Assembly (NCBI GenBank): GCA_947579605.1
Contig: OX388320.1
Span: forward strand, 310,001 to 374,000
Direction of reading: 5' to 3'
DNA length: 64,000 nt
Source of the DNA: Athripsodes cinereus
Taxonomy: Eukaryota; Arthropoda; Insecta; Trichoptera; Leptoceridae
Of the stretch, positions 3,404 through 51,935 are shown piece after piece; the first letter of the stretch is position 1; each line of letters opens with the position of its first letter. Below the pieces are notes generated by a model. It was not told the origin of the DNA, did not search any database, and was given only the letters and a program-made list of their open reading frames with translations. Both the position numbers and the translations under genes were made by a program.

Positions 3404-3626
3404 TTTTTTGATAATAAACAATATAAATATAATTAAAAAACACTATTACTTTCACAAATTATATAAAGAGTTATAAGTACTTTTCGGACATCCGTCCATC
3501 ATCAGTAACAACTTAGAACAAGTTCTGATGATGGACGGATGTCCGAAAAGTACTTATAACTCTTTATATAATTTGTGAAAGTAATAGTGTTTTTTAATTA
3601 TATTTATATTGTTTATTATCAAAAAA
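3404..3626. repeat. Palindrome P1: two 102-base arms, hammerhead cores at the centre
   Basis: The arms at 3404-3505 and 3525-3626 are reverse complements for about 102 bases. They are separated by a 19-base spacer that itself contains AACTT/AAGTT. Each arm begins at the centre with CTGATGATGG and runs outward to an A/T-rich end (poly-A beyond 3620). It has the architecture of the palindromes at 29.4, 33.3, 45.3 and 51.7 kb but a different arm sequence. Probable origin: head-to-head Penelope-like element leader. It directly follows the LINE tail. Confidence 0.85.
3470..3509 (-). ncRNA. Hammerhead ribozyme candidate, type I (P1 left arm)
   Basis: Read on the minus strand, in order: GTTA (stem I), core CTGATGA, one extra T, GGAC with loop GGAT and GTCC (stem II), GAA, self-complementary AAGTACTT (stem III with the required A15.1-U16.1 pair), A (cleavage base, UA fits the NUH rule), then TAAC, which pairs with the initial GTTA. 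All canonical core bases are present. The departure from the textbook motif is the extra U between A9 and stem II, which recurs in every copy here. The plus-strand mirror in the right arm (from 3525) has the same core, but stem I is displaced by two bases. Confidence 0.55.
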
Positions 3627-3639
3627 AAAAAAAAAATAA

Positions 3640-6600
3640 ATAAAAATATCAATAAATAAAATAGAAATAGGTCAACTATATTAAAATATTTGATAAATAT
3701 TTTGTGGTAAATTATGCGGTTACCGGCCAATTCCTTAAAATGGCTCATAATCAATTGAGATGCAAAATAAATGAAATCTACAGTAAGAATTCTAAATCTA
3801 CTAGTATGATTAATTAAAATTTACATATTATGCTGACATTTTGTTATCAGAGAACGACTTTTGAATCACGTGCTTTGTTTTTGTCATTAACTATTTCCGA
3901 TTATTTCGGTAGTACTTACAATCGCGTGTAGAAATAATAATAATTGATAGGTAGATTACGCATTGAGTGAGCGAGGATGTGTAAAAGTAGAAGATGAGCA
4001 CAACCTTCAGATTTAGTAGTATAAAGGGTTGTTTTACTGTTTCCATTCATAGTCGTGGTGGTGGTGGTGGGTGGTGGAGTAATGTAGTGTTATATTGTTA
4101 TTTGAGGGAGGTTGTATCTAGCGTTAGCGCCACCCTATTAAACAACTCTACCATCTCACTACCTTCACTACAATACACTGTAAATGTTATCAGAGTCATT
4201 TCATCTCACTTGACATTTACACTTCCACATGACTTGGCAGTGCCCTTCTGGCTCTGTGAGGTGATGACTGGCTTTTGTGACACTTTCTTCTTCTTCAGCT
4301 GAGGTGTTATTGGATTTAGTGTCGGTGATGATCTTTATTCCATTTACACAGTACATTAAGCCCACTATTATAAAGCAAACGAATTTTTTTCTGGCGATGG
4401 TCTATTTTAGCGAGTTTTCTTTTAAATCATACATTAATTCAAATTGTGTTGATGTATTTAAAATGATTTTGAATATTTTTCAATGTGTTTTATTCATTCA
4501 AAGTATCGTAGTCAGAGAATCATCCAAAATAAAATGAAATAATTTAATTTACTTCACATTTCTACAATGAATCATTCGTAGTTTATTGGTATTTTTCTTA
4601 AACATTTTGACATAACAAATAAAAAATATCTTTCTCTTAACCTTAACACAAAATATTTTCATCATTTTAATTATTCTTCACTTCAAATAAAAACAAATTA
4701 ACTTATACCTAGTATATATATATATCTACTAATTACATTATATAATCTATATAGGATAGGAAACATTATTGACATTGTGATTTCATATTGAGATAATCTG
4801 CACGAAACATATAAACATTAGGATTAATGATTCGATAATAATAATATCTACATAGTACTCGTAATAATACCAGCCCCTTTCAACTATTTTTTCGCATTCC
4901 TATTTCTTCAATCACTCACCCCCTCCACCCATAGTACACTACCGTGATCTGTATGCTGGCTCACCCCTTCTCACTCCACTTGTATACAGTAGATCCACAG
5001 TGTAATCATCTTTAGACACTATTGTTACATCATTAGGCACAGAGTACAGTCACGTTACATTACATTAGTGTTACATGTCATATTGTTACATTGTTTCTAT
5101 CTTCACAGCCTACAATACTTCGACACTCCCATCACCAGGGTGGTTAGAATAAAATTGAAGTACTTGCTAGATGTACGAAGAAAAGTATCTAGTAAATATT
5201 GCTTAGCTTGTTCGACAAAAAGTTAATCTTGTTTTTTTTTTCTCTTTTCTGTAATGTATTCTTGGTTAATTATGAATTCAAATATAATAATTAGCAGAAA
5301 ATAAATATAACTAAACAACATACCCTTTATCATTATTGATCAGTATAAGTAATTCACATTCATGGGCCATAATGAAGTCGTGAATATAAAATTTTGAATG
5401 GCCAAAGGCTTACTTAATGTTTCCTGAGCTCCAAAAAAGGAAAAATCTACATAAAACCCTGCTGAAATTTTCGTATCTTTCTAAATCTGATCATTCTATT
5501 CTTCACCATTCATGATACCTAATACACAACACAATGTTGATAATCAATGTGTTACACTCTTAATACATTAAATTATTTTGTAATCTATTTCATAATGTTA
5601 AGTGCCTCCATATCTTGAAAGCTTTCATTAATAATCACACTTCACTTGGAACCTTATAATTGATGACTTAGTATAATGTAATACTCGATAGGGTAAAATG
5701 TCGTAGGTCACATAATAGTTCAGTTATTAAAATATTTTTCATAAGAAAATAACTTCCTATGCAGGCTTTTGACGATTGCAATTAAAATTCATGTAGACAT
5801 GTTATAATAACTTCAATAAAACAAAATATATAATATTTAAAGATATGTGTTTAGCTATGTTTTAATGTAAAGACATTTTTGTTTTTTATCAACGTTTGTT
5901 AGTATCAGAAGCTGATCTCGACTAACTTGTTTTTCAGTTCGTTCTGGGATATCATACTTAGTACAATATTATGATAAATTTGTATTTATTTCATAAAGCA
6001 AGATCGGCTTAATGTTTTTGTTTTCAATTAGATAGTATTTTTACTGCGCCACGGGTATGTTAAGCAATTACATTAGGAAACAGAGAATTCCTCCCTCATT
6101 TCCAAAACATATCTCCTGGCGTGACATCCAATTGTGTAATCTGTTCCGAGGGGAACTTTCAGATGGAGATTACAGTCTCGATAAATTTTAAGTACAACCT
6201 TTATTTTTTAAGAAAGTTGTAAGGCGAAACGTAAATTTAAATATACAAATCTCGAGACATGTCTTAAATAAAATCCGTGGGAACAAAACGAAGGAAAGAT
6301 AGAAAGTGGTAGCAGGAAACAAGAAAATAAAGGCAATAAAAATATATAATGAGACAGTAAATTACCTGTAGATAACATCTTTGGTAGCCGAGAAGCTTAG
6401 GATGTTCAGGTGAGAGAAAGTAAACACGTAAAATAGAGGTTTAGTGGGGCAGTGTTGCTAGTGCTAGGTCGGGCTCCGAATATAATAAATTTACTATCAT
6501 ATTGCTGCGGCACAGAGGCATTGCTCAACGCTCGATGCTCCGATACTCCGTTGGTAATATCTCCTTTCCTCCTCTCACACCATTTCCCGTATTGATCAAC

Positions 6601-9080
6601 GAAAACAAAAAAGGTTGGATTAGGTTAGGTTTTGATTACTCTCCCTTTTCCTTATCGAGCCTCTGAATCCTTTGTCTTTAAATACTTGCAATTCCTTATA
6701 ATAACTTTCGTATTTTTTTTTCAAGATATTATTTTGAAAATTCCGCTCCATCGGGCAAATTAAAAATGAATGGTTCAATAAAGATTTATTTTTATTATAA
6801 GTAATTAATTTTATCTATTGGAACAAGGATAAGCTCGCATTGGATAATGCCAAACATTCATCTAACTCGAATAGTCAAATGTCTGTCCACCTACATAGTT
6901 ACTTGTTTACTTGAAACTTTATATTATTAACTAAGTAATCGTGTCACTAGGAAGTCTACAAGCCGAGCTGATCTGAGTTGTACTAAACTTATACTGTACA
7001 TTAGCTACATAGAGAACAAGAAACATGATAACTTGTGCTGGGAATTGTATTCTATTCACACACATGACTGAGAAAGCGACATAGCGATAGTGACATTGTT
7101 TCTGAAAGTTCCTGTTGCCTACAAATTTAGTCTACAACTGCAACTTAAGTGTTATATTGTGACATTCGATTTATATTTGTATGAGATTACTACAATCATA
7201 CGTAATAATAATAATAATAATATGTGCATATATTTCTTGTTACAGGAAAATAACGAATAATAAAAGCTTTCACAAAAATGAAGGAAATTTCTCTTTTGAA
7301 CTTCCATGGATTGTAATAAAATGTTTGATGTTTTTTTGGTAGTTGTTGTGAGTTATTTCTTTTAAATTTGTATTTTTTCAAACAAACAGTTTGTCGCCTT
7401 TGGGAAAATATTTGTTTGACAAATAAAGCACGTTATAAAGAAACAGAGTTTAATGTCAGGAGTTCGAAAGATTTTTTCATCTTCCCATCTTTATATAATC
7501 CATTGTTGTATTATGTTTTTGTGTCTGTGCTGGAATTTTATTCATTTACTGTATTTTGAACAGAGAAAGTCTTTCTTATTTTTATTAATAACCTCTAGTG
7601 AAGCTTTGATGGTGTATTCCGCTTCCTCTATTTATTTCCTAGTAGGTACTTGCGTGCCATTTCCAATAATGATCTTTGTATAAATGTTGCCATGTTGATT
7701 TCTTTAACTTTGCCATTATCTTTGTCCTATTATCAGTTGCCATCAGTCATCGCTTTGTATTGGTGACGTCCACCAACCTCCCCTGAACTGTCCTTCTAGT
7801 CAGTACCCCTCCTCCCATTAGCCAGGTTCTCATATAGCACGCGATATTTTCTTTATCACCACAAAGTATCTTAAGACTCGGTTTGGTTTCTTACCGAATT
7901 AATGTGTTCTCCTATCTGACTACCGTGTCACGTTATATTTACACTTTCCTCGTATCAAAGCTCAGTAATAATTCGTAAGTTTGCTTCTTATTATTACTGT
8001 TTGATAAACTTACACGATTTGCATATTAATCTTATTTACCATTTCATACCATTTCATAGGAAAAACAATATTTAATTTTCGCATTTGATTGTACGAGTAT
8101 ATACTCAGGTAAAATTGAAATATTTGAAAAAAAATGTGATTGTATCACTTCTGAAGCTAATGGAACAGACACATTTGTAGGTACATACGTTAAATCCTGC
8201 ATATAAATATATTTGTTTTACTAATTCGGTTTATTCGTCCAAACTAAATTCAATTTTGATTATCAGTTGTTCACAAATAATAGGGATAATGGCTTTCACG
8301 TTCTGTTATTCGAATTCATTTTGTGTTGATCGTAATTTTTTATTAACCAATTTGATAATTTGACAATATAGTGATAATTTAAAAGTAGAGATTCGCTTAA
8401 AAGCGTTAAAATATTTGTCTTATCCTTTTTATAAGGATAATAGATCTGTTTATAGCATATGACATTTATATATATTAGATATAAAGAGAAAGAATAAGAA
8501 TGTTATGTATGTAAAATGAAATATTTATTGTATAAATATGAATGTTTTTCAAAGTAATTAACTTATGAGTGCTTCACTCTGGTTCCCGATTAACTTGAAG
8601 ACGTTTAATTGCTGTAATTCCCAACAGCTCTGTTCTCCAGAGATATATAATCCTCGTATATTCCTAACCTTCCCACTCTCACTCACCTCAACTCTAATAA
8701 TTTACGGAATTTTTACTAAAAGGAAAAGTTTACTTGGAATTTTTTAGTATTTTCATTTCAGATTTCACTCGGGATTCAAATTGAAACAAGCAATTATTTT
8801 TTGGAAAAATAAACAATAAATTCTTTGTTCGGAAATACTCTCGCACTCCCTTATGGCGGTGATTATCCGGAAATAATTGGCTTTTCTTTGATTTCTGAAT
8901 AATTAAATTTAATGCACTGCCATTGTGAAATTACGTTCGATTTGCTTATCCACTCAAATTAAATCTTTATACCTACAACTGATCATTCAAAGTGTACTAG
9001 ATTCAAACAATATGTTAGTAAATTTTTAATTATGTGTTGATGTGATAAAAACGATAACAATACTAATGGTGTATTTTTCT
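3640..9080. other. AT-rich DNA without a recognisable gene
   Basis: I see only short random frames. Notable points are a GTG-repeat at 4055-4077, a TATATA run near 4717, TAA repeats at 7203-7222, a GGATTAGGTTAGG stretch near 6617, and slightly GC-richer patches near 6430-6560 and 7740-7860 that I cannot assign. Confidence 0.5.
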
Positions 9081-9091
9081 TCCTTTTTCAG

Positions 9092-9164: not shown

Positions 9165-9170
9165 GTAAGT

Positions 9171-10970
9171 AACTAAAAATAAAAATGATGACTTGCGAAC
9201 AAGTGGATGGCCTATTCAAATAAAATAGAAAAAATAAGATTGTTTAAGAATTTGTCTTCATAGATTTTATTTTAATTGAAGCATTTTACATTATTCAACA
9301 GAAAATAAACTGCAGGCAGTAAGAATATTATTAAAATGGTTTAATAATATTCAGTGGAATAGTTTATCTGGAGACTAATATTTCTTATAATTGTTACTTA
9401 TTCTGAATTATTTCAATATTTATTTTTATGTTCAAATAAAGTCAGTCAGTACTTGATATAAAATTGGAAACATGTTTATTTTTAAATCGTCGGAATAATG
9501 TCTGATTCTGTTTTAATTCCCCAAAGGATCTTTGCCATCTCGTACAAGACAAAGTTATTTGCTTGAGACATCTGGCTGTGATCTGTGTACATTGTTTTGT
9601 ATTTTAATATGAAATTTAAATATCGTTGTCCGTCTCCTAGGCCCTGAGGTGAATAGGGATGTTGGAATCATTCAATTATTTATTTCCCTCCGTAAAAATA
9701 AATGAAATGTTTTATTATTATTAGATATACATTCTACTTCATATTATTTTTATTGAAAAAATAATTCATACACACTTACTGCAGTAAATATAATCAAATG
9801 TCAGTAGCATCATTTTACAGTACATACTTCATTACAGAAACATTCAAGTTTATATTTTGTCTTGTCAATTCACATTTTTTATTTTAAACAGTCTGATAAA
9901 ATTTAAACCGAATATCTATCTCTTACAAGACATTCGAAAACTAATGTAAGGATTAGGAGACCTGTAATTTAAAGACTGCATAATTGATTTATTTTATTAT
10001 ATTTTATATCTTTATCTATTAATGCCATCACGTAGGTAATCTCTTGTGGTATGCATAAAGCACATATAACGAACATAAAGGTTGTTATTCATAACACAAC
10101 ATACAGATAAATTCCTCGTGGATCTGTCGCTATTTTATATTTTTCATAATTGAGCTTAATTTCATAACATATTCACGGGGAGTGTTTGCCTGTAGTTATT
10201 GTGCAAAGCTCGTTATGCAATCCTCCCCATACATTGCAATGCATCAACACAATGTGAATTCTTTAACTTCTTATAGTTATCATCATACTGTACTAGACAA
10301 TGTTTTGTCTTTGTATGAGAGAACCAACCACAAAGCTAATTCTTGTGTATTTTATTGTTATTCGTATGAAATAATAACAATCGCATTAGCTGTCTGAAAG
10401 CACAACACTGTATGGTGCTGTGCTGTGTGGTACTATACAATACAATATAAAATACAATACCTAGGTAGGTATATCACGGGAATGAAATGTAATTCTGCAA
10501 AACAACATATTACTATTATTATCTGTACTCAACATAAAATTTATGATACAAATAATTTTTAATCCGGATTTTCTCAGGGAATAAATATAAATGGATAGGC
10601 AATTCAAAAAAAGAAAAATTGTTAATTTCTCATATTAAAATACTGAAGACTAATTAGAAAGTCACTTATGCAATTGATTACTATTCTATTCAATGAAAAA
10701 AGGTGACTATTTTTTGACTAAATACAGGCTTATATTTTATTGTCAATGCAAACATGTACATTTTGGTGTCGAAAAATTTGGAACATCTTTGTGAGGTGAG
10801 TTAAAATTAAAATTTAATTTTGTAGGAATGCGTTTTATCGATTAGATTTACTTGAGAAAAGAAGGCACTAGTTTCTCCACCTGTTTCTTATATGGATTGT
10901 GTATAGTGAACGTAAATATTAAATAGCTTAAAACAATGTGGTTTGAAGGCTTTCATGGCGATCTTCTCTA
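9171..10970. other. AT-rich DNA, nothing assignable
   Basis: Short frames only, with no conserved motif, terminal repeats or tail that I can recognise. Degenerate ACAATAC repeats lie near 10430-10465. Confidence 0.4.
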
Positions 10971-10973
10971 TCT

Positions 10974-11080
10974 GGTTGTTGTTTTTCGGGTTTGCCATGT
11001 CTAGTTTTATTATGTAAAAAAAATATTGTCAAATTTTGACAAAATAAAACTAGACATGGCAAACCCGAAAAACAACAACC
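10974..11080. repeat. Inverted repeat with 37-base perfect arms
   Basis: The arms at 10974-11010 and 11044-11080 are exact reverse complements (GGTTGTTGTTTTTCGGG... outward). The AT-rich 33-base loop contains AATATTGTCAAATTTTGAC. Outside the arms the flanks differ (CTCTATCT on the left, CGATAGCT on the right). No hammerhead core is visible. The class is unknown; the head-to-head arrangement resembles the other palindromes in the window. Confidence 0.7.
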
Positions 11081-11689
11081 CGATAGCTCAAAACAAGTTT
11101 TCAGTGTTTAGAATTTCACCAACCTCATTTGTAAACTTAAAGAATTCATATAAATCTCGAAAATAAAACTGATTTAGGTTATACTAATAGTCAGGAAGGA
11201 TTTTTAAGGCTTTATTTATGAGTCCTGTACTTATTTGTTGATTCGCATAAGTTATTATGCTAATCGACACATTGACAAAATTATCTACATACACTTTCTG
11301 ATTTTATGATCTTTTTAAATATATATTATATACTTTCATATTATGGAAAACCTTTTCTGCTTTTCAGGAATATTATTCTCATTTTTCAGATATATATTAA
11401 TACAATATGTATTAGAGAAAGTGCAAACAACATTTTTTGTTAAAGAGTTGTTTATTTGTCGTAGACTCAAAACAATATTTGAATTCTGAAATTGATTTTG
11501 TGAAGAAAAACGTGTCTGAATATTTTGCGACGAAAAACGTGTTTGAGTACAGCGAGTGAATGCTTCGTATTATATCTTTGAAAGTAATTTATATGTACGT
11601 AATTCTGAAAAACAATAAGATTTCTTTTTACACTAGACTTTCACCGAAATTAAATCTTGGATTAATGTTTCCATTTTTTTAAATTTAAA

Positions 11690-16489: not shown

Positions 16490-17925
16490 ATTTTAATTGT
16501 ATTAAATCATCAACTTTATAATTATTCCCCGAGTATGCCGAGTTTTAAGATACTATTAAAATATTATTCCGGGTTATATTTTGCATGAATAAATATGACT
16601 GGGATTAGTATCTAACAAATTACATTTCATAAGACTTATTGCAGTATGTACCTACATATACCTGCCAGCCTTATGGCTGTTTCATAGCTTCAACATGTTA
16701 TCTATCTACCTACCCTACGAAGGATGTAGGTATTATTACATCGGAGCTGAAGGAGGGTCGTGAGTTCATACTATTGTACCTATTTATATCTACCTACATA
16801 ATATAACTGCGAGAAAAATGAATTTACATTGTGTAATGGTATAATCTTATTACTAGGTATGGGTATCTAAATACCTACTTTTTGAGAGAGAATAAATAAT
16901 CCTCACTATTAATAATGATTTTAGTATTTGAAAGGTATGTTGAAGAGGATATTTCAACAATAAATTGTTATTGATATCATTAGTCTTGTATATTCTCTTA
17001 CATATTATATTATATTTATAGATATATTATTATAAATATTAATATTAAAATGATAGAGTTAAACACTGTTACTTTCATTCTATCATTTTAATATTAATAA
17101 AAATGAACTTTCATAAGGTTACCACCGAAAAAATAGAATTCTTATTATAAATATTTAAATTCTTTCCTATCTATTGTAAATTTTGAGGGTTATATTTCGT
17201 TACAGTTACAAAACACCATTTTGTTTGGGATTTACACTGAAAATAATTATTTTTAATAGGAAGATCCTTCCAAATCATCCAGATCAACAGGCCAAAACCA
17301 TCGTCGTGGGTATCTTTACTATACTCTGTATTAAATGCCCCGTTCAAAGTAAATAAATTTATTTGGTATTAAGTAACATCGATTGTAAAATAATAAGTAA
17401 AGTAGTAAAAGAATAACAAAAGTAAAAAAAACAAAGAGTAAGCAAAGGATATACACAAGTTAGTGAATAACAGAAGGCCGAGGTGAGGTGTCCAGAGACG
17501 TTTTCTTTGGTGTTTGTTCGAAGGTAGTAAGCATTGATGAGATAAAATATAGGAAAAAATCGCATTCGATTTATTATTAATGAATAATTCTTCATCTCAA
17601 ATATGTTCCACGTTATTGAATAAACGTGAAAATGTTCCTTTAATTGGCAGGCATTATAATATAGTAGGAACATGTGGAATATGATTCTACTTGTGTATCA
17701 GCTGCACCCCTACATTGGAAATACTTATCAGATTTTATTATCATTAAAAGATTACTTATTCTATAAACCTCTTACTATTTCCATTCAATGTACTAAGTCA
17801 GTGCCCTCCAATAGATTTTCCACATGAAAATATTTTTGTGGTATGGAATTGTTACCAACTTCTTAATACTACCAGGGTGATTGAAGTATCTGTACCAACG
17901 ATAAGTTCAACATTCAATTTGTAAT
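16490..17925. other. AT-rich DNA with a 20-base inverted repeat
   Basis: ATTAATATTAAAATGATAGA (17040-17059) and TCTATCATTTTAATATTAAT (17080-17099) are near-perfect inverted arms around a 20-base loop. Nothing else is assignable. A 104-codon minus frame (17359-17673) looks random. Confidence 0.5.
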
Positions 17926-29357: not shown

Positions 29358-29562
29358 AAGATAATTGAAAAAAACACACAATATGTAGTTAACTTCCAAA
29401 TGACTTTATTAACTTCGCGTACTAGTATTCGGAGACTCTCGTCTCCCAACTTTTTTACTAATCGCCTGATGATGGAGACGAGAGTCTCCGAATACTAGTA
29501 CGCGAAGTTAATAAAGTCATTTGGAAGTTAACTACATATTGTGTGTTTTTTTTCAATTATCT
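29358..29562. repeat. Palindrome P2: 89-base arms with hammerhead core
   Basis: Arms at 29358-29446 and about 29474-29562 are reverse complements apart from one base in an A/T run. The spacer contains TTTTTTACTAATCGCCTGATGA. It is almost identical to P5 at 45.3 kb, which marks recent amplification or exchange. To the right it continues into a conserved start of a reading frame. Confidence 0.9.
29462..29505 (+). ncRNA. Hammerhead ribozyme candidate (P2)
   Basis: TCGC (stem I), CTGATGA core, extra T, GGAGAC-GAGA-GTCTCC (stem II, six pairs), GAA, TACTAGTA (palindromic stem III), C, GCGA (closes stem I). All parts are in the right order and spacing. The weak point is the 15.1-16.1 pair, which is U-A here instead of the conserved A-U. 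The fold is likely, activity uncertain. Confidence 0.45.
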
Positions 29563-29566
29563 TGAA

Positions 29567-29662
29567 ATGGACTTCCAACAAGTACCTTCGGTCAACAACA
29601 TTAATGCTTACGAAAAATATACAAAACAATACACAACAAAAGAAAAAAAAAACCAAATTTTG
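29567..29662 (+). pseudogene. Conserved start of a Penelope-like element frame
   Basis: Five bases after the P2 arm a frame opens: MDFQQVPSVNNINAYEKYTK, and then stops after 31 codons. The same start on the opposite strand lies beside P5 (45271 leftward) and P4 (MDFQQVTSVNNI, 40018 leftward). A shortened form (MNFQQV) lies beside P6. Several copies preserving an ATG and its first 6-12 codons just outside a palindromic leader suggest this is the element's own N-terminus. No polymerase or GIY-YIG domain follows in the window, so all copies are truncated. Confidence 0.5.
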
Positions 29663-31999: not shown

Positions 32000-33190
32000 A
32001 ATATATTTTAGTGCGTATTATGCTTTTTTTTAAACTTGTAATTTATTTCTATGTTGTTACTAAGAAAAAAGACACAGAAATAATGATTTTCACATACAGC
32101 GCAAACACCTGTTGATTCCTCTGCTTATGGCCAAATCCGTGAAGGGTTTTAATGGTATGAAGAAACTCTGTAAAGTGCATTATTAGTTTAAGACAATTCA
32201 TAAGTTTTTTTAATTACATACTGCTTTAGAACTAAGCATGATCTGCCGAATTGTAGAATGAAATTCGTTCATGCACCATTGACCACACAGAAAGTATAAA
32301 AATAAAAGTACAAAATCTCCCTGAAATGTATTAATCCATTTTCGTGCTTAATTCGACCAGTAGTTGCTTTAGTTCATTTCTCAAAGTAAAATAATATTAA
32401 TATATTTATAGAGACAAATCGATTCACGTAGATTGTTCACTACTTATCTTTTACCTAGTCGACTTGTACTCCTGTCCAAACTCTGTGAGAGTTTCTCTCT
32501 GTCTGCATTGTGTTTGTTCATTTATGTGACCAACCCCCTACTTTACATTCATGTATGTGACTTGAAGAAGTTAACAAACACGAACTATTTCTCTATATTT
32601 TCTATAATAAAACTAGGAATCGTTTGGTGATTTTGTGGAACCAACTTTATTGTTGTTACTGTACTATTATTTGTATACTTCGTTGTAGTTAAAGCAGTTT
32701 CTGGTAATAGTTTTGTGACCAATTTGTTTAAATTCTATATAATAGATTCCAACTTAGTTGGAACAAGAAGAGAACAACAATTGGCGAAGAACAAAATATA
32801 AGTGGGAATCAAATTATAACAATTATAAAATTAGTCAAATCAGGTCATTCAGAACATTAGTCATGAAAAATGAAAACATGAATCAGATTTGTGATGGAAT
32901 CAAATACACCATCACTAAGCAATAATAAAACAAGGGCTTTTTTGTAGTTACCTTATAAAAATATATATTTTAAATTTATTGTTCAAGTGGAAACGCTAAG
33001 TGTATAACTTCAAAAAAGAATTTTTTTATAAAAATGTCTCTCATAATGCAAAAAGTTATGTCTGATATCATAATAAGCCATCACGGAGTTCCTCACAGTT
33101 GTAGTAAAGAGTAGAGCAACTGCATGTTAAAAACATCAGTTTTTCATTAATTGTATCGGAATTAACTTTGTAACACTTCATTTTAAATTA
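32000..33190. other. AT-rich DNA, no gene recognised
   Basis: A weak minus-strand echo of family T may lie at 33080-33135 (CCATCACGGAGTTCCTCACA). Nothing else. Confidence 0.35.
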
Positions 33191-33192
33191 GC

Positions 33193-33445
33193 AAATAAAA
33201 TAAAATAAATATTTATTATTTTTGTTTTATGTTACTGTTGAGTAAGACTATTGCACGACCGGTTTCGCGGACTCCGAGTTCGCAACACCAGGTGCTGATC
33301 TATACCTACTATCGATCATAGATCATAATATCGTATAGATCAGCACCTGATGATGCGAACTCGGAGTCCGCGAAACCGGTCGTGCAATAGTCTTACTCAA
33401 CAGTAACATAAAACAAAAATAATAAATATTTATTTTGTTTTATTT
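33193..33445. repeat. Palindrome P3: about 90-base arms with the best hammerhead core
   Basis: Left arm 33193-33283 and right arm 33353-33445 are reverse complements with few mismatches (GTTACTGTTGAGTAAGACTA... outward into TAAATATTTATT). The central spacer of about 70 bases contains a further inverted repeat (GGTGCTGATCTATAC / GTATAGATCAGCACC). The arm sequence is unrelated to P1 or P2, so it is a different subfamily with the same design. Confidence 0.85.
33343..33385 (+). ncRNA. Hammerhead ribozyme candidate, type I, complete core (P3)
   Basis: In order: GCAC (stem I), CTGATGA core, extra T, stem II GCGAACTC / GAGTCCGC with one A-C mismatch, GAA, ACCGGT (stem III; A15.1-U16.1 present, fully self-complementary), C (cleavage base, after 33381), GTGC (closes stem I, four pairs). 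Every catalytic base is present; only the extra U before stem II departs from consensus. Stem III is too short to form a stable loop alone but would give six pairs in a dimer, as in minimal hammerheads of Penelope-like elements. The mirror copy on the minus strand (33253-33295) has a mutated core, CTGGTGT. Confidence 0.6.
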
Positions 33446-33584
33446 GATACATCAGTTTTTTTTAACCGATATAAAAAAAGATATTCAGGATCGATATCAA
33501 TACTCCATTACCGCTGAGAAAAAGATATTAAATGTCTTTATACGTAAATTATTGAAAAAGTATCTTCTGTGTACTACCTGGCAA

Positions 33585-39365: not shown

Positions 39366-39984
39366 GAACTAAATATAAATTATTTATCTTTTATCAATTA
39401 TTGAGCACAAGTTGAAGGATATAAGTTGAAAATGCGATGTTAAAAATATTATACAACAGACAGTTCAAAATGCATATGATTTTTAATTACAGAAGTTTGA
39501 AATATCTAGTCAAAAACAAACCATTTGATATCTGAATATTATTTTAAGTTCAGGCCTGTATTGATGTGTCACTCATAATCTAGTGAAATACTCCGCATAC
39601 ACTTACATACTGTGCGGCGTAGATCATTGCTGAATAAGTGATTTCACTAAAAATAACAATATAATAGCGTATTTAATTAAAATGTAATGCTTGTTCTCAT
39701 TATTTTCGTATTAACATTTCAATTATACCTACGATCTTTTTAAATATTGAATCAAAGGGAATTTAGTAAGACAACTTCGGTTTCCTAAATAAATCTGCTT
39801 TGAATATTTAATCTTTCGTTTCATTCTCCCTTCGAGTTATCCGTGGAAATATAGGGAGGCTGCAAAATTCGTATTTCTTCGAACTATTTAGCTTAATGAT
39901 CGAGGTTCTTAAGGTTTTTGGATGTTGTAAGTATTAAATTTTTTTTTACAAAAACATCAACATAAAGTTACTTAAAAAATTCGA

Positions 39985-40208
39985 TGTTATTGACCGAAGT
40001 TACTTGTTGGAAGTCCATTTCAATATAAATTGAAAAAAAAAACAGTGTGTAGTTTACCCGCAAGTGTCAAATATCTTCGTTGTCCAAATTTTGAATGCGT
40101 GAAGTAATTTCTGTTACTACATGTTTATTAACTTTAAGATAAATTGAAAAAAAAACACAGTATGTAGATAACTTGGACAACGAAGATATTTGACACTTGC
40201 GGGTAAAC
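39985..40208. repeat. Palindrome P4: 36-base arms plus an internal direct repeat
   Basis: GTTTACCCGCAAGTGTCAAA... (40052-40087) and its exact reverse complement (40173-40208) enclose 85 bases. A second unit, ATAAATTGAAAAAAAAA with ACAGT(G/A)TGTAG, occurs directly repeated at 40024-40052 and 40139-40167. The left flank is the MDFQQV frame start on the minus strand. No CTGATGA core remains, so it is a rearranged family member. Confidence 0.75.
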
Positions 40209-40504
40209 ATCTGTCATTAGAAAATTTTCATTAGAAACTAAGGCTTTTTTTTAAATTATTTACCAATACGTAAATTAATACTGCATATTATAATGTGTAA
40301 TATCGTAATATTCACAAAATGTGTTGTGTTCTTTCTTCTTAACATTTCTTCCCTCCCGTCCCTCATGTATCTTCTGGCTTCCCTGCGGCCGTGACACGCA
40401 ACAGCAACACTAGCAGACTGTTTGTATCATCAATAACACTATTATCTTCCTCCGTCACAACCAAACATCTTCTCAGTTCATCTATCACACCAACTATATA
40501 CATG

Positions 40505-40789: not shown

Positions 40790-41071
40790 GAGAAATAACA
40801 GAATCCGAACTGGCCATGGCAGATTCGGACATCTTCTCCAATTATGGGGCAAGAAAGACCATCAACCCACTATGTGCATTGTTGCCAAATTGAAACGATC
40901 AATCATATTGTGGAGGATTGTTCCCTTAGTAGATTTGCCGGAGATATAGAGGAGATTCATCGGGTGTCACCACGGGCAATTGAATATATTAATAACTTAG
41001 ACGCAGAGCTATAGCTCTTAGATAACTCTACGCACAGGGGTCGCTTGCATACGATGATGATGCTGATGATT
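40790..41071 (+). pseudogene. LINE polymerase C-terminus with GAT-repeat tail
   Basis: Two overlapping frames give NYGARKTINPLC and then HCCQIETINHIVEDCSLSRF, ending DAEL and a stop near 41012. The H/C pattern is the C-terminal finger of a LINE polymerase. A frameshift separates the parts. The copy ends in GATGATGATGCTGATGAT (41053-41070). The next LINE fragment starts immediately downstream. Confidence 0.6.
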
Positions 41072-41154
41072 CCTTCATTACGTTATTTGATTTCATAATA
41101 TCATGTATTCGTCAACATTTGTATCGACCAAACATTTGTTCCTTGTATATTAAC

Positions 41155-41796
41155 TATGGTTGCAATTCCCAAACATCTCAGGTTAGTAAATTCAGGTACC
41201 TGGGAGCAACCATAACGCCAGAGGGTGATCTCCGGTCGGAATTACCAATCCGCATAGGAGCAGCTAGCGGGGCTTTCAACAACATGAACAAAGTTTGGAA
41301 GGCGTCTGGACTCAGCATCAGGACAAAATGTCGCTTGTTCAATGCGTGCATCATCCCAATCCTTCTATATGGCTGCGAGTCTTGGCACTTAACCAAGGCT
41401 CAAGAGCGGAAGATACTAAGCTTTGAAAACAAGTGTCTTAGAAGGATTTTGGATGTCAGATGGTGTGAACATGTTACAAATGATGCTGTGCGCCGGCGCA
41501 CCCAGCAGATACCTGTAATCCCCGTAATACAGGAGAGACGATGGTCATGGCTGGGACGTGTTTTGAGAATGCCTAATAATAGTTGGCCAAAAAGAGCACT
41601 GTTCTTCAGTCCGCAGGGGTTCCGTAGGCCCGGGCGTCCCTCTTTCACAATACACCGTTCCTATGACAACGATATCAGAGCGCAAGGAATGTCGTGGGAA
41701 GAGGTGACGCAATTGGCACAGACACGCTCTGAATGGAGGAGGCTGGTTTCTGCCCTGTAGGCGTTGAGGGCGATGATGATGATGATGATGATGATA
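41155..41796 (+). pseudogene. LINE reverse-transcriptase C-terminal third with GAT tail
   Basis: The frame is open for about 200 codons: VSKFRYLGATITPEGDL, RTKCRLFNACIIPILLYGCE, CLRRILDVRWCEHVTND, RRWSWLGRVLRM, FRRPGRPSFT, WEEVTQLAQTRSEWRRLVSA, then stop at 41758. This is the 'thumb' and following region of a common animal LINE polymerase (RTE/CR1-like, clade not fixed). The catalytic YADD part is missing, so it is 5' truncated. The (GAT)n tail at 41770-41794 follows the stop directly. An ATG at 41119 lies in sequence before the homology and is not a true start. Confidence 0.8.
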
Positions 41797-43075: not shown

Positions 43076-43079
43076 GTCT

Positions 43080-44289: not shown

Positions 44290-45235
44290 GTACCTACTTA
44301 TAGTAACTTAGTATAAAACAGTGCATTTTTATTAAAAAAATAATAAAACTCATAGATTAGACACACGGTGGTCTGTATAAAAACAGTTTTAAATTTTCCT
44401 AATGATAAGAGTGAAAGCTTCTGAAAATCGTAATGCAAATAATATAATGCGTTCCATTTCAACATTTTATTGAAGATTTAATAATTTCTTATTTCTTGGA
44501 ATGATGGAACTAAAGTTAATGATATCGTTTTGATAACTTTATTAATTTATTCATAAGGTTTTGCACTGATTTATCAACAATTATGAAATGTTTTCTCGTT
44601 TGTTGCACTGTTTTACTTTCAAATGTAAATGTATTCATTTCACTTGCTTCTTAGTTCAATATATGGGGTGCATTAGAATAAGATATAGTCACTATCTATT
44701 TAAATACTTTTTTGGGTTATAACATAACATTTATATACAAAGTAAGATACATTTGTTCTAATACTCTTTACACATGTTGTTAGACTAGATTTTCTGTCCA
44801 GATACATCAAACAACGTGTCAAATAATTAAAACAAATTCTTATTGTAGATTGTATCATATGAATTTAGATACAAATGTTGCTGCTTTCATACTCCATAAA
44901 TTCCCTTTCTTCCATTCATTTTTACTATGATACTTACCCATCCGTAGTACAGAAATAGTATCTACTCAGATGTACATACACTATTACTTTGATGATATCA
45001 GCTGTGTACAGTGCAGAGAGAGTTATGTGTTTTGTATACAATAATTTAACATTTTGTTTTGAGAATATTTTTTAATATAAACACGAATACCAATGTGTGA
45101 TATTACGCTCATTCACACGACGTACATAATTTTATAGAAAAATAACAAACACCATACATATATCAATGTGTAATATGCATTTGTGTTTATAACTTTTTAG
45201 GTTATATTTTTTTATGTAGGTATTTCTAAAACATT
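44290..45235. other. AT-rich DNA, nothing assignable
   Basis: No frame, tail or repeat that I can recognise. Confidence 0.4.
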
Positions 45236-45478
45236 AATGTTGTTGACCGAAGGTACTTGTTGGAAGTCCATTTCAAGATAATTGAAAAAAACACAATATG
45301 TAGTTAACTTCCAAATGACTTTATTAACTTCGCGTACTAGTATTCGGAGACTCTCGTCTCCATCATCACTTTTTTACTAATCGCCTGATGATGGAGACGA
45401 GAGTCTCCGAATACTAGTACGCGAAGTTAATAAAGTCATTTGGAAGTTAACTACATATTGTGTTTTTTTCAATTATCT
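45236..45478. repeat. Palindrome P5: 93-base perfect arms with hammerhead core
   Basis: Arms at 45276-45368 and 45386-45478 are exact reverse complements. The left flank (45236-45275) is the minus-strand start MDFQQVPSVNNI. It differs from P2 by a handful of bases, but the intact-core spacer lies on the opposite side relative to the reading frame. Confidence 0.9.
45381..45424 (+). ncRNA. Hammerhead ribozyme candidate (P5)
   Basis: Same parts as P2: TCGC, CTGATGA, T, GGAGAC-GAGA-GTCTCC, GAA, TACTAGTA, C, GCGA. The left arm read on the minus strand has GTGATGA in place of the core, so only this side could be active. U15.1-A16.1 is inverted from consensus. Confidence 0.42.
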
Positions 45479-45798
45479 AGGTATTTCTAATTTACTGATA
45501 TAGATTAGGTGATTTACATAGTAGTTATATCATAAAAAATATGACGTTTCTAATAATTAATTTAAACACGTGTTTTTTTGAAATTAAATAAATTGTTTAA
45601 TTTATTTTATATCATTGATAATTATTTACACGATATAAAACTTTTAAATGTAGGCCACACACGGAGTTAAAAATAAGCTAGTTCTCTTAAGTATGAAATT
45701 TTGATAAACATTGGAGATAAACAGAGTAATTGAAATATGTTTACTACACAAATAATCGGATATTTAACATATTTAAAATAAACCAACAAATTTAAATT

Positions 45799-45994: not shown

Positions 45995-46137
45995 ATTTAA
46001 ATTTATAATATTGTATAAAGTGTTATAATTTTAAGTATTGATGTGATCTGTATGTTGTAATGATTCCTCATTTTATAACCAATATCCATTCCTGTTTTAT
46101 TTGGATTGTTCTAACTTTTATTTTATTTTTGTTTCAG

Positions 46138-46205: not shown

Positions 46206-46214
46206 GTAAGTACC

Positions 46215-46650: not shown

Positions 46651-46655
46651 CAGAG

Positions 46656-46775
46656 GTCCGGTGTAACGCGGAGGTAACGCTTTTGCCTTTGATTCGCAAG
46701 GTCCTGGAATCGATTTCCGGCCAGGGCAGTTTGAAGAATGACCTTTTACTAATTGTCCTGGGTTTGGTTAGGTTA
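46656..46775 (+). mobile_element. SINE family A, diverged copy
   Basis: The tRNA-like head (GTCCGGTGTAACGCGGAGGT), a mutated B box GAATCGATTTCC and GCAGTTTGAAGAATGACCTT are followed by a short body that fades near 46775. It is older than the 30.4 kb copy. Confidence 0.7.
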
Positions 46776-46809
46776 GCATAAATATATAAAACATATAATT
46801 TTATATGTT

Positions 46810-47710: not shown

Positions 47711-47720
47711 TTGTGTTATC

Positions 47721-47828
47721 ATCATCTTCATCATCATCATCATCATCGCCTACAACGCTCCTCTCGGGAGCACAGGGCAGAAACCAGCCTCCTCCATTCA
47801 GAGCGTCTCTGTGCCAATCGGTGTATTT
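47721..47828 (-). pseudogene. LINE C-terminal end with GAT tail (same family as 41.2 kb)
   Basis: The minus strand reads ATTGGCACAGAGACGCTCTG, AATGGAGGAGGCTGGTTTCT, GCCCTGTG..., then GATGATGATGATGATGATGA. It matches the last 40 codons plus tail of the 41155-41796 copy. Confidence 0.75.
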
Positions 47829-47875
47829 TAAAAGAGTAACGCCCGGGCCCACCCGTTGCGTTATGTTGTGTGAAA

Positions 47876-47950
47876 AAATATCAATTTCTAAAGTAACGTA
47901 CACATTGTCGTGTAAAATGTTATCAACTTCTAAAGTAACGTACACACGAA
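47876..47950 (+). repeat. Tandem duplication, about 42-base unit
   Basis: TATCAA(T/C)TTCTAAAGTAACG then TACACA occurs at about 47878 and again at 47920. Confidence 0.7.
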
Positions 47951-48461
47951 TCATCCATATTATGTTCTGTGACAGTGTACTGTCTAAAAACAAAAATCTC
48001 GATCGCCTCGTACGAAAAAAATACTTTATTACGTAGTGTGAAAGAGGCCTGTGTAGGTTACAAACACATACTTCCTTTCAGAAACATTAGCTATTTTGGG
48101 GTGTTATTATTAACTTGCGCTATTTGTCGTTAGCTTTTATAATAACCTAAGTAACTTATGTACTCCTATACAGCTAAGTATATTAACCAAAAAAACACAT
48201 ATTATTATCTATCTTTGTTGAGGTATGTCATGTGTTAAGTATACATACATATGTTGATACATAATAATAATATGTCGCTCTCTTCTTCTAGATTTGTTCA
48301 TCATTTTGTCAAGGGTTTTGGAATGTTAGTTACACGTAGTTAAATACTTAAATATTTTAAAATTTATAATTTTTATAGCTATTTATATTTAGGTAACTGA
48401 TAATTCAGCGTTATTTTTGTCGAGTAAATGTTTTATTAAAAGTGCATTTATCTTATGAGAT

Positions 48462-48545
48462 TGGCTGGAAGAAATCATATTCGCGATAAGTTCTCGTTTT
48501 GGTAACTTTTTTATCGCCATATACAATGGTTATTTTATTTATTAT
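48462..48545 (+). mobile_element. Decayed LINE 3' end (family H)
   Basis: GGCTGGAAGAAATCATATTC, GCGATAAGTTCTCG and a later AATGGTTATTTTATTTATT resemble the hairpin region and tail at 51.6 kb. The stem is broken. Confidence 0.4.
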
Positions 48546-48656
48546 TTTTTACAATATTAACAGAATCAAACAGTCATTATAGAATACGTAAACATTCATT
48601 CAATATCCTGAAAAAAAAACCAGCACAGATCCTTAATTTACCAGAGATGTTTAAGT

Positions 48657-48962
48657 CTTAAATACGTTTCGATGGTTTGGATATGTAGAGCGAATGGACG
48701 ATGAAAGGATGACGAAGAGGGTGTATTTATCTGAAAGAGGGTGTGTGAGAAAGCACGGACATCCAAGAACTACATGTGTTGACCAATGGATCAAATTTTT
48801 AAGGATGGTTGCGTGTTGAGTAAGAGAAATTGACGTGCATGTATGAGAAACTGGATGAATGGAGAGGAAGCGAAAGAAGTTTGTAAGGATAGATAAACAT
48901 GGCGTTCCGTTCTCTCAGCCTACCCCACCTGGGACACGGCGTGAGGGTATAGATAAATAGAT
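48657..48962 (+). pseudogene. LINE C-terminal fragment, family R, with TSD
   Basis: AGATGTTTAAGT flanks it at 48645-48656 and 48963-48974. The frame corresponds to RWFGYVERMDDERMTKRVYL, a frameshift, RN-stop-RACMRNWMN and EEAKEV. The 3' end is CCTACCCCACCTGGGACACG, GCGTGAGGGTATAG, then a TAGATAAATAGATAG tail. Confidence 0.8.
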
Positions 48963-49164
48963 AGATGTTTAAGTTTTAAGAAACCATCAAAGTTAAATGA
49001 ATTATTATCAAAGCAACATAAAATTTAGTACTGAATAGCTCTTAAATTTACGAATAAAATTGGGCACTTTTTTTACTTAAAATAGATGGGAAAATCCAAG
49101 AATATATTTTTATTTATATTGTACTATTCTTTTATAAAAATTAGATCAATATTTTATTTGAGAT

Positions 49165-49290
49165 ATTATTTATTTATTCTTCACTGTATATTGTTTACAA
49201 TAATACAAATTAAAACAGTTATCATAGAAAATATCAGTTATACAATTCAATGTACAGAGTGCGAGTTTATCGCTAAATTGCGATGTTTTC
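49165..49290 (-). mobile_element. LINE 3' end with 16-nt hairpin (family H)
   Basis: The minus strand has ATCGCAATTTAGCGAT (49269-49284), AAACTCGCACTCTGTAC, then ACAGTGAAGAATAAATAAATA. Same order as at 20.5 kb. Confidence 0.7.
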
Positions 49291-49413
49291 TAACTAACCC
49301 GGACCTAGATATTAAACAGTATTCTAAAGCTTTCATATATTCATACATACCTCCCACCTTTTAAAGTTCTTATTTGTAAAATTTATATACCTACAGTATA
49401 ATTTTAATAATAA

Positions 49414-49690
49414 GAATGAATGAGGACAGAATGACTAAGAAGATATATTTGGCTGAGAGGAATGGTGCTCGGAGACGCGGACGTCCGAGGATTAAATGGC
49501 AAGATCATTTAAATCAAATCCTACAGGACGGTCACGTGTTGAGCACATTGAACAGGAGAGCATGCATGAGGAATTGTATGACAGTGACGGAAGCGAAAGA
49601 TATATGCAAGGATAGAAGGAAGTGGCGCTCGATCCTTTCTGCCTACCCCGCGAGGGAAGCGGCGTGATGGTATGTATGTATGTATGTATG
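49414..49690 (+). pseudogene. LINE C-terminal fragment, family R, with 15-base TSD
   Basis: TAATTTTAATAATAA is present at 49399-49413 and 49691-49705. The frame (MNEDRMTKKIYLAERNGARR, RGRPRIKWQDHLNQILQDG, RACMRNCMTVTEAKDICKD, WRSILSAYP) is uninterrupted to a TGA. The 3' hairpin is CCCC-GCGA-GGG, followed by AAGCGGCGTGATGG and a TATG-repeat tail. It is probably the youngest family R copy here. Confidence 0.85.
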
Positions 49691-49709
49691 TAATTTTAAT
49701 AATAAAATT

Positions 49710-51285
49710 TAATAATATTATAAAACGTACATTGTACCTAAACTAGAATTCATTACATAAAATCACTTTTATAAAATATGTGTATGTAAGAGATTTCTAC
49801 TCTAAACCCAGTAATGAATGAAGCATTAAGAGTACGTAGGTACTACCCCACATTTCAAATACAAACTATTGTTACCATAATATACTGAAGTAGGTATGCT
49901 GTGCTACTGTGAGTGTTTACAGTCTTCTGCATGTGTTACCATATCTCCAAAATAAAATCAAATAATATAAAAAGTAATTAGAGTACAATGTACCATTTTC
50001 CCTATGTACATATTTGTGTACCAGTTTACACTGTTTGTATTTTCGTCAAAGGATTTTCTTTATTTTTGTTTCGTCCTCTTCTCATTTGTATAATAAGATG
50101 TATGTAGGTGTATTTGTTTGTCTGTAAGTACCTACTACATCTGTAAATACAAATGTATTTATAATATTATTCTGTACAACATTTATGTGGGTTTAATGTT
50201 CTTTTTTATTGTCAACATTGTAGCTATACTGCGTACGGTATGTTGTGACCATAGACATAATACATAGCAAGAGTGTGCACATCTATAAAAAATCATGCCA
50301 CCTGAGATAGTAATTCGTAGAGAGCATTGAAAATTGAATAAAATGAAGTCATTTCACTTGCTTCTTAGTTGATTATCTTAGTTTTTTCCTTTGGTTTGCT
50401 TTATTATTTCATAGGGATAAAGAACTTAATGCCACGGCAGATAGTATATTTACGTTTGTATTTCGATCAAAAGTGCACAGTCTAGTTCTTGTAAAATGTC
50501 TTTGGTCATGACATACGAGTATATGTTGTAATGCTATATATTTCACTCATTTTTCATTCACATACTGAGCTAATTTCGTCAACAATTTCTGAAAGTTAGT
50601 TTCAACGAATTTCATTAAATTTTTATCTAAACCGCAGAATCCACTGAATTGAACAGACATCACAATCTTTTCTACTTATATCATTACGAGTGTTCCGTGA
50701 GACGTATCCGTAAAACATAGCCTACTTGTAGGAAATTTAATTTTGGTATCGATAAATAGAGGCAATTGTACTACACTTACCATAAAATAGCGTAAAAGTG
50801 TTATTTTATTTTCACTTATATTGTCTTAAATTAATATTAATCGGATGTACGCATTTGTCATTAAAACAAATATGTGAATACAATATTAAAAATACATATA
50901 TAGATCTGTATAATGGTAGGTAACGTTTGTGTGGTAGGTGTTCTTTTTCCCAATAAATTAGCTGTGATTTATTCCAATGTTCGCATTAGTATGAGACTTG
51001 TGGATTTATTAGTAAAACTTCACGCACTCCTAGAATATTAATGAACGTATTTATTTGGTGCGGTTCATCGTGCTTCCGAAATAATTTCACGGAGCGGCAA
51101 TTCCAAACGATATGTGACGATACCTTCAAAATTGAAATTATTAAATCGTTTTTCCATGGTCATTAAAAAATAATGTTGTATGGAATAAAATATGTGTTGT
51201 CAATATGTGGCTATCGATTTCATTAAAATACAAAGATAATGGTATTAATCAATGATACTAACCTTATTATATTATATAGATACTA
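49710..51285. other. AT-rich DNA, nothing assignable
   Basis: No frames, tails or repeats of note. Confidence 0.4.
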
Positions 51286-51289
51286 AGCT

Positions 51290-51376
51290 GTGTGAGTTGT
51301 CTATACATGTCTATACATGTTATGTTATTAATGTGAAAGGCTTAATCGCCGTTAATGATAGATAGAAATAAATATA
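51290..51376 (+). mobile_element. Jockey-type LINE 3' terminus
   Basis: AGCTGTGTGAGTTGTCTATA, CATGT (duplicated), GTGAAAGGCTTAATCGCCGT, then GATAGATAGAAATAAATA. The first block matches the 3' end of SINE family A. Confidence 0.6.
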
Positions 51377-51589
51377 GAAAATTACACATGTTAATTCATT
51401 TTTAAAGGCGCCACATTTTCATTACAATAGGTAGACTTCCTCTTTATTAGATAAATTGAAACGATAGTTTCGTTCTACTATTCTTCTCTAATCGGTTTCT
51501 GTGTTACATAAATTAATAGTTTTTTGGTTTTAAGCTACACAAATTTATAATGTTATTGTCATGAGGTAATTTAAATAAAGTATTTGGGT

Positions 51590-51706
51590 TGGTTGGAAGA
51601 AATCGCACCTCTGCGATAAACTCTAATTAAGATTGTATTTGATTTGTATGCATTTTGTGTAAATTTGCTTGTTATCGATGTATAATAATTAATAAATAAA
51701 TAAAAA
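51590..51706 (+). mobile_element. LINE 3' end with 16-nt hairpin (family H)
   Basis: GGAAGAA, hairpin ATCGCACCTCTGCGAT (51602-51617), AAACTCTAATTAAG, TGTAAATTTGCTTGTTATCG, then AATAAATAAATAAA. It abuts palindrome P6 directly. Confidence 0.75.
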
Positions 51707-51707
51707 A

Positions 51708-51935
51708 GGTACTTGTTGGAAGTTCATTTCAAGGTGAATTGATAAAAACACAGTATGTAGTTTACTTCCAAGTGACTTTATTATCTACGCTAACTAGTAT
51801 TCGGAGACTCTCTACTCCATCTTCAGGCGAATCATCAATCAACAATCGCCTGAAGATGGAGTCGAAAGTCTCCGAGTACTTGTAAGCGTAGATAATAAAG
51901 TCAACCGGAAGTTTATGTTATTTTTATCAATTCAC
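51708..51935. repeat. Palindrome P6, imperfect arms with decayed hammerhead cores
   Basis: Arms at 51735-51830 and 51846-51934 are imperfect reverse complements, each starting at the centre with TCGCCTGAAGATGGAG. CTGAAGA still fits CUGANGA, but in the right arm GAA has become GAG. The left flank encodes MNFQQVP on the minus strand and then runs into the LINE tail, so the frame is cut there. Confidence 0.8.

Follow-up and report, generated by a model that had tools for sequence, protein, structure and literature searches.

Head-to-head leader palindromes of Athripsodes cinereus as probable insertion products of Penelope-like elements

The 64,000-nucleotide stretch of Athripsodes cinereus DNA analyzed here (Trichoptera, Leptoceridae; GenBank assembly GCA_947579605.1, contig OX388320.1, positions 310,001 to 374,000 of the forward strand; hereafter the window) contains five head-to-head palindromes, with arms of 58 to 117 nucleotides (nt) and spacers of 15 to 27 nt, built around a fold that resembles the hammerhead ribozyme. 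We consider it probable that each palindrome represents one insertion of a Penelope-like element (PLE), in which both target strands primed reverse transcription of uncleaved leader RNAs. As apparent footprints of such events, the palindromes document the insertion mechanism of elements that are still poorly understood. A first-pass annotation of the sequence had reported at least five palindromes, near 3.4, 29.4, 33.3, 45.3 and 51.7 kb, with three arm sequences; all five were located at these places, and the three arm sequences were borne out, the palindromes at 29.4, 45.3 and 51.7 kb belonging to a single family (family A).

One tailed and one untailed arm in each classified pair

Two sets of loci were analyzed. 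The family-A set came from a DNA search with the right arm of the 29.4-kb palindrome; 40 of 992 candidates were scored, so that the 30 loci obtained give a lower bound of the copy number. A second, inverted arm lay within a few hundred bases in 26 of these loci. Loci L037, L040 and L045 held a single tailed arm, which in L040 carried its own 13-bp duplication. The second set comprised the window, 20 sampled 10-kb loci (position 1,000,001 of contigs 1 to 20), and the neighbours in L029 and L044. Of the inverted repeats listed, 12 were read. Lone cores or tail-like starts were present in L005, L011, L014 and L019, with no partner recognised there, and palindromes in L004, L010, L013, L019 (2434-2554) and L002 (2769-2983) that had neither a core nor a recognised tail were left uncounted.

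The outer ends of family-A arms fell into two classes, near CAATTATCTT or about 44 nt further at CAACATTAATG. The extension starts with GAAATGGACTTCCAA, and other families have ATGAACTTCCAC, ATGAATTTCCAC or ATGGATTTCCAC at the same place, so the tail appears to consist of the opening codons of a reading frame. This extension of about 44 nt is the tail published for PLEs; in a rotifer, the pseudo-long terminal repeat (pLTR) encodes the first 12 codons, or 22 when the 31-bp one-sided tail is included (PMC3846280).

Exactly one tailed and one untailed arm were found in all 42 distinct classified pairs. The short family-A pairs conformed throughout (26 of 26), 25 having been classed automatically and that of L026 by eye, its untailed arm being interrupted by a later insertion, and the long pair of L049/L051 likewise has one arm of each kind. 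In the second set, read by eye, all 17 classifiable pairs were one-tailed. Fifteen of these had been found by their cores or arms, blind to the tail (3.4, 29.4, 33.3, 45.3 and 51.7 kb; L002; L003; L007, twice; L008; L015, twice; L018; L029; L044), and two with the help of the tail (17.0 kb; L008, 6682-6770). The 29.4- and 45.3-kb pairs belong to both sets. Two of the tails, that at 51.7 kb and that in L015 (8474-8798), have been shortened or have diverged. A relative at 40.1 kb, in which the homology of the right arm stops before either start site, was kept out of the counts. Were the ends chosen independently, unlike ends would be expected in at most one half of the pairs. No two-tailed pair occurred among the family-A loci, and the tailed query could not have under-represented such pairs. 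We infer that the arms of each pair stem from two different reverse-transcription start sites, one each.

The pairs are also flanked by target-site duplications (TSDs). A shared flanking word of at least 9 nt (9 to 15 nt) was present in 21 of 24 family-A pairs, compared with 11 of 552 mismatched flank pairs, and the duplications measured 12 to 14 nt in 18 of the 21.

A palindrome could also arise if a single complementary DNA or antisense transcript folded back and was copied, and self-priming on an antisense template has been proposed for head-to-head PLE copies in a rotifer (PMC3846280). Consistent with such copying, 6 of 24 family-A pairs show no difference between their arms over 85 nt, and the agreement of variants within pairs exceeds chance: among the 21 of 24 family-A pairs that were readable, TG copies agreed in 17 (permuted mean, 12.6; P = 0.004) and the exact T-run in 11 (mean, 5.8; P = 0.013). 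Such agreement is expected if a single source gave rise to two sibling RNAs, and also if the same RNA was copied twice, but not if RNAs were paired at random across the family. However, folding back predicts like outer ends, and the unlike ends of every classified pair speak against rotifer-style self-priming here; furthermore, target duplications stand at both ends, and the two arms of L046 disagree in their T-runs (9 and 6). We regard this origin as unlikely. Hairpin chimeras can yield perfect palindromes, and an assembly or library fold-back artefact would be of this kind, but the unlike outer ends, the target duplications and the joints that differ at many loci leave it a negligible probability.

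A Penelope-like element and a proposed insertion route

The link to PLEs is provided by the long L049/L051 pair. On its minus strand, a reverse transcriptase (RT) fragment with YVDD is followed by a GIY-YIG endonuclease (EN) part, a stop, a 3' untranslated region (UTR), the TATA box TATAAATA, and a family-A leader with its hammerhead and no tail, and on its plus strand a shorter UTR is followed by the same family-A leader with a tail. The arms form a 600-bp inverted repeat of 99% identity, and the whole head-to-head element is flanked by an 11-bp TSD, TACACATATCA. Among 17 homologues of the RT fragment, PF00078 was found in 10, PF26215 in 13 and PF01541 in 2, and one homologue (P0002, E = 5.7e-62) has all three together; PDB and NCBIfam searches of the fragment gave nothing usable. 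A pair of another family in L029 has a 735-bp centre that includes, ahead of a leader, an apparent endonuclease C terminus, read by eye and without profile support. The first-pass proposal that the palindromes are 5' leaders of PLEs arranged as inverted pairs is thus supported by a leader linked to, and directly downstream of, an RT and GIY-YIG frame, by the one-sided tail, by the TSDs and by the pLTR layout.

Inner ends were placed for 56 family-A arms. Twenty-seven lay within -2 to +4 of ACTTTTTTAC, 13 of them exactly at its first base, which is 32 nt from the first base of the TATA box in longer copies; 8 lay upstream, 18 at +5 to +26 and 3 at +27 to +52. None lay at the hammerhead cut site or beyond it, in a sample drawn with a hammerhead-bearing query that favours such arms, and the 17.0-kb pair of the window starts past the hammerhead. 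From these positions, the inserted family-A RNAs look uncleaved and often copied to a possible RNA 5' end.

The same positions bear on animal-type retrozymes, which are described as tandem hammerhead repeats spreading via self-cleaved circular RNAs (PMC7229834). The copies studied here resemble them as short, AT-rich, noncoding repeats with type I-like hammerheads, but their arrangement is head-to-head and no family-A arm begins at the cut site. A short direct tandem of one family was not noticed in the core lists, which were inspected by eye and come from loci in which kilobase-spaced tandems could not show; neighbouring same-family cores in the window and the loci read were head-to-head, except for a core fragment inside the L018 joint. 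We consider a retrozyme origin very improbable.

The joints between the arms were nearly blunt. With L042 and L046 left out for their long centres, 16 of 22 exactly matched joints overlapped by 0 to 2 nt, and 6 were broken by mutation or extra bases. Overlaps of at least 1 nt amounted to 75%, against 45% for random joints, and those of at least 2 nt to 6%, against 14%; microhomology, at most weak on exact matching, was dropped as evidence. In L018, the centre of the pair (8374-8403) has a short direct copy of CTGAAGATGCCTACAAG ahead of the intact core, as if the template had jumped at the joint.

The 22 exactly anchored family-A pairs had 21 different inner sequences, and only L031 and L034 were the same. 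This argues against the palindrome as a unit of its own, either a DNA transposon like a miniature inverted-repeat transposable element (MITE) or an independent nonautonomous element, that is moved whole. Such a unit would account for short noncoding inverted repeats, target duplications and many copies. It would not account for outer ends that are unlike in all classified pairs, for the single-arm copy of L040 with its own duplication, or for an arm that extends into RT/EN sequence, and we judge it highly unlikely.

Insertion of leader RNAs primed from both target strands could proceed as follows. The transcript would start about 32 nt downstream of the TATA box and run through the hammerhead-like fold and then through the PLE start codon. 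The PLE enzyme would cut both target strands with a stagger of about 12 to 13 bp, and each target 3' end would prime reverse transcription inside a leader RNA, near the 5' end of that RNA; one priming site would lie at the outer edge of the tail and the second some 44 nt upstream of it. Copying would converge from the two sides, in many cases reaching the RNA 5' end, and the copies would be joined almost bluntly. The product would be a pair of head-to-head leaders, one arm tailed and the other untailed, with the hammerheads close to the centre and the target sequence duplicated. In Anolis, a purified PLE protein cuts both strands of the target and extends them, with initiation at two internal sites of its own RNA that bound the tail; hammerhead mutants of this PLE still insert (PMC11167929).

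Several points weigh against this route. The family-A query was tailed and held the hammerhead, so that pairs of untailed arms and arms starting past the cut site are possibly under-represented. An earlier, stricter classing of family A gave tail/no tail in 20 of 24 pairs and tail/other in 4, the untailed arms of the latter having mutated, interrupted or slightly short ends. A clear target duplication was not found in 3 of the 24 family-A pairs or in the 51.7-kb pair. The small T-run difference within pairs (0.67 versus 1.45; P = 0.0014) also suits one RNA copied twice. The GIY-YIG part of L049/L051 matched PF01541 at E = 0.0024 with a score of 18.5, under the cut-off of 22.6, its RT fragment had no Pfam match at E up to 1, and in place of a complete PLE frame we saw a 5'-truncated copy with RT and EN parts in two frames. 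Finally, the proposed route does not account for the strict use of different start sites, and those of the Anolis PLE did not differ between strands (PMC11167929).

A hammerhead-like fold and its possible role

From the centre outward, the palindromes read CTGATGA or CTGAAGA, then a single T, a hairpin, GAA and a self-complementary word of 6 to 8 nt; after one further base come four that, in at least one arm, are complementary to the four preceding the core. The core, stem II hairpin and GAA reported at or near the centre were present in all five palindromes of the window. The stem I pairs reported with them (GTTA/TAAC, TCGC/GCGA and GCAC/GTGC) were confirmed in the four intact cores; they failed in the second core at 3.4 kb, which is preceded by AGTT, and only three of four pairs formed in the left arm at 51.7 kb, where the self-complementary word is decayed and both cores are CTGAAGA, partly decayed. 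A fold descriptor (stem I of at least 4 bp, core, insert of 0 to 2 nt, stem II, GAA, stem III, H17) found four intact folds in the window (+29466, +33347, +45385 and -3505), compared with 0.15 per Markov-shuffled window (20 shuffles).

In the genome searched (716 Mb, 160 contigs), the loose pattern CTGANGAN{8,30}GAAA occurred 73,096 times, compared with 25,402 for the reversed control. The 100 places listed all lay on the plus strand, within the initial 2.1 Mb of contig 1. In 28 of them a 1-nt insert led into a closed stem II of at least 4 bp (shuffled mean, 2.1; maximum, 6), whereas without an insert (2 of 100; shuffled, 2.3) or with a 2-nt insert (3 of 100; shuffled, 1.9) the numbers were at chance. 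The insert was T, followed by G, in all 28 closing stems, and the constant extra U before stem II that had been annotated thus held among the places listed. Applying the 28 of 100, less about 2, to the 73,096 occurrences yields about 19,000 cores, and the 9 pairs in 200 kb of sampled loci correspond to about 45 per Mb. By rough extrapolation from these unlike units, there would be some twenty to thirty thousand insertion products genome-wide.

Across 11 families or subfamilies, 40 of 44 stem I pairs were kept (permuted mean, 19.3; maximum, 34; 20,000 permutations) in a test that is somewhat favourable, since stems II and III are common to L008 and L044, the stem register was chosen by eye for L015 and 63.5 kb, and 3.4 kb entered with its paired arm. 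These were 11 of 14 distinct cores; L023 +704 (weak) was omitted, as were L040 -472 and 51.7 kb, decayed relatives of two used cores. Stem III was self-complementary in 9 of the 11, with seven different words. It is thus the pairing and not the sequence that is kept, as the first-pass annotation had claimed, and the compensatory changes that it called for are seen in stems I and II, which vary across copies with pairing retained. In a MAFFT alignment of 12 hammerheads, the stem III ends were not in register, and single-strand folds of six leaders were unremarkable (z of -0.8 to -1.9).

With its CUGANGA core, three pairing helices and GAA, the fold is built like a hammerhead and may belong to the minimal type I form. 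In that form stem II directly follows A9; here one U is inserted (28 of 28 listed). An extra core nucleotide has a precedent in a natural viroid hammerhead (reference 28 of PMC6155905). The suggested check with Rfam turned out negative, as the hammerhead models gave no match, either at their cut-offs or with E raised to 10. Of the two outcomes named in advance as refuting, this one occurred, and the other, a lack of compensatory changes, did not. An extra core nucleotide and a nearly absent closed stem III may be poorly suited to the standard models. Rfam matches to microRNA precursors were under their cut-offs, reflect hairpins and were rejected. Typically, hammerheads have an A15.1-U16.1 pair and follow the NUH rule. 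The 15.1-16.1 pair is A-U in 10 of the 11 families and U-A in family A, the 29.4- and 45.3-kb copies of which may, by this rule, cleave poorly.

The fold might act mainly as a dimer-linkage signal, comparable to the palindromic dimer site of retroviruses: stem III would join two leader RNAs of the same family, which would be delivered to one target, and cleavage would be secondary or lost, as suggested by the U15.1-A16.1 pair in the young family A. One RNA would then be primed by each DNA strand, the two start sites being different, and head-to-head twin insertions would normally result. The self-complementarity of stem III and the concordance of variants within pairs are in favour, and two family-A hammerheads, folded without constraint, formed a double hammerhead (-34.2 versus 2 x -13.7 kcal/mol). 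However, a full double hammerhead formed only in family A among the 11 unconstrained homodimer folds, and stem III formed between strands in three (A, L008 and L044), two of which share stem III, whereas the rest preferred other duplexes. We therefore advance this role tentatively and hold it to be doubtful. A palindromic stem III has been described before in dimeric hammerheads of PLEs, but these lie in tandem (PMC6466107 and PMC7761336).

Copies in the window and comparison with known systems

The copies in the window are collected in Table 1. Those at 17.0, 40.1 and 63.5 kb (a pair, an unclear relative and a decayed hammerhead) had not been annotated before, and neither a partner nor a tail was recognised for the last. 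Two further palindromes (10968-11086 and 59418-59638) have no core and no recognised tail; they were left uncounted and are perhaps other foldback or MITE-like elements. The window also holds an uninterrupted frame of 957 amino acids (22-2895, plus strand) with Exo_endo_phos and RVT_1 domains, which belongs to a retrotransposon of the long interspersed nuclear element type and not to a PLE, and a frame of 244 amino acids (41026-41760, plus strand) with DUF6451, perhaps a retrotransposon remnant.

Table 1. Positions of palindromes, arms, folds and target duplications in the window
Feature	Position	Strand	Description
Palindrome, 3.4 kb	3404-3505/3525-3626		arms of 102 nt, 100% identity
Palindrome, 29.4 kb	29368-29446/29474-29552		arms of 79 nt, 100% identity
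Palindrome, 33.3 kb	33189-33305/33333-33449		arms of 117 nt, 97% identity
Palindrome, 45.3 kb	45276-45368/45386-45478		arms of 93 nt, 100% identity
Palindrome, 51.7 kb	51764-51830/51846-51912		decayed, 88% identity
Left TSD, 3.4-kb pair	3347-3359		ATAAAAATATCAA; second copy (right TSD) at 3640-3652
Left arm, 3.4-kb pair	3360-3505	minus	hammerhead leader and tail, tail ATG at 3398
Hammerhead-like fold, 3.4 kb	3470-3509	minus	stem I GTTA/TAAC, stem III AAGTACTT
Right arm, 3.4-kb pair	3525-3639	plus	no tail
17.0-kb pair with direct repeats	17027-17155		14-bp repeats TTATTATAAATATT at 17027-17040 and 17142-17155; leaders truncated in both arms; hammerhead absent; tail on right arm, ATG at 17103
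Left arm, 29.4-kb pair	29368-29446	minus	no tail, 5'-truncated at stem II
Right arm, 29.4-kb pair	29449-29606	plus	from putative +1 (ACTTTTTTAC) to tail end
Hammerhead-like fold, family A, 29.4 kb	29462-29505	plus	stem I TCGC/GCGA, stem III TACTAGTA
Left TSD, 33.3-kb pair	33133-33144		ACATCAGTTTTT; second copy at 33449-33460
Left arm, 33.3-kb pair	33145-33305	minus	tailed; core decayed to CTGGTGT
Right arm, 33.3-kb pair	33333-33448	plus	no tail
Hammerhead-like fold, 33.3 kb	33343-33385	plus	stem I GCAC/GTGC, stem III ACCGGT
40.1-kb relative	39970-40215		left arm tailed, ATG at 40018 (minus); hammerhead missing
Left TSD, 45.3-kb pair	45217-45229		TAGGTATTTCTAA; second copy at 45478-45490
Left arm, 45.3-kb pair	45230-45368	minus	tailed, ATG at 45271
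Right arm, 45.3-kb pair	45368-45477	plus	begins at putative +1, no tail
Hammerhead-like fold, family A, 45.3 kb	45381-45424	plus	
51.7-kb pair, older family-A relative	51706-51915		left arm with tail start, ATG at 51727 (minus); right arm untailed
Decayed hammerhead-like fold, 51.7 kb, left arm	51787-51830	minus	
Decayed hammerhead-like fold, 63.5 kb	63496-63532	minus	GGCA-CTGACGA-T-GGACTAGTTTC-GAA-AAGTCT-C-TGCC; stem register set by eye

Two loci outside the window show altered leaders. In L023 (1704-1894), a family-A arm is broken by the insertion of another hammerhead family (stem II GAGACAGTAGGTCTT, stem III AAACGTTT), so that PLE leaders seem to insert into each other. In L003 (7007-7029, minus strand), an internal deletion joins stem II of a tailed leader nearly directly to the tail, and an inverted untailed arm adjoins.

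Minimal dimeric hammerheads have been described before, as have PLEs themselves, inverted pLTRs and the tail. In the literature searched, as far as its text was accessible, we did not meet a rule that exactly one arm is tailed, a derivation of head-to-head PLE copies from priming on two strands, or a proposal that the hammerhead links dimers, which is weak evidence of their being new; PLE integration, the frequent inverted copies and the role of the hammerhead are described as unsettled (PMC11167929, PMC3846280, PMC7761336). The one-tailed rule found here also brings within direct experimental reach the question of whether the hammerhead serves to join two RNAs.

The copies of A. cinereus are closest to PLEs with inverted pLTRs, such as Pen2a and others of Adineta vaga (PMC3846280) and Poseidon PAc of Anolis (PMC11167929). 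They share with these an RT/GIY-YIG frame, a pLTR running into the frame start, a TATA box, a short one-sided tail at one of two inverted pLTRs, target duplications and the head-to-head arrangement, and with PAc also a hammerhead at the junction of pLTR and open reading frame (PMC11167929). They differ in that most of the copies read are a leader pair only, in family-A duplications of mostly 12 to 14 bp, and in the constant extra U. The minimal, dimer-cleaving PLE hammerheads (Lünse, Weinberg and Breaker 2017, as described in PMC7761336 and PMC6466107) likewise have a very short palindromic stem III and a possible double-hammerhead dimer; they are arranged in tandem, whereas the partner here is inverted, so that a dimer needs two RNAs, and the extra U and the U15.1-A16.1 pair of family A set the present fold apart. 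Metazoan retrozymes, reported alongside PLEs, are also small noncoding elements with type I-like hammerheads, but they form direct tandem repeats and circular RNAs of about 170 to 400 nt (PMC7229834), and such a direct arrangement was not seen in the loci read. Finally, the tail is termed "optional" in the rotifer paper (PMC3846280), whereas exactly one arm bears it in all 42 pairs classified here. Together with TSDs in 21 of 24 family-A pairs, this rule makes the tail a restriction on possible mechanisms: each target would have to be primed twice, once at each of the two start sites.

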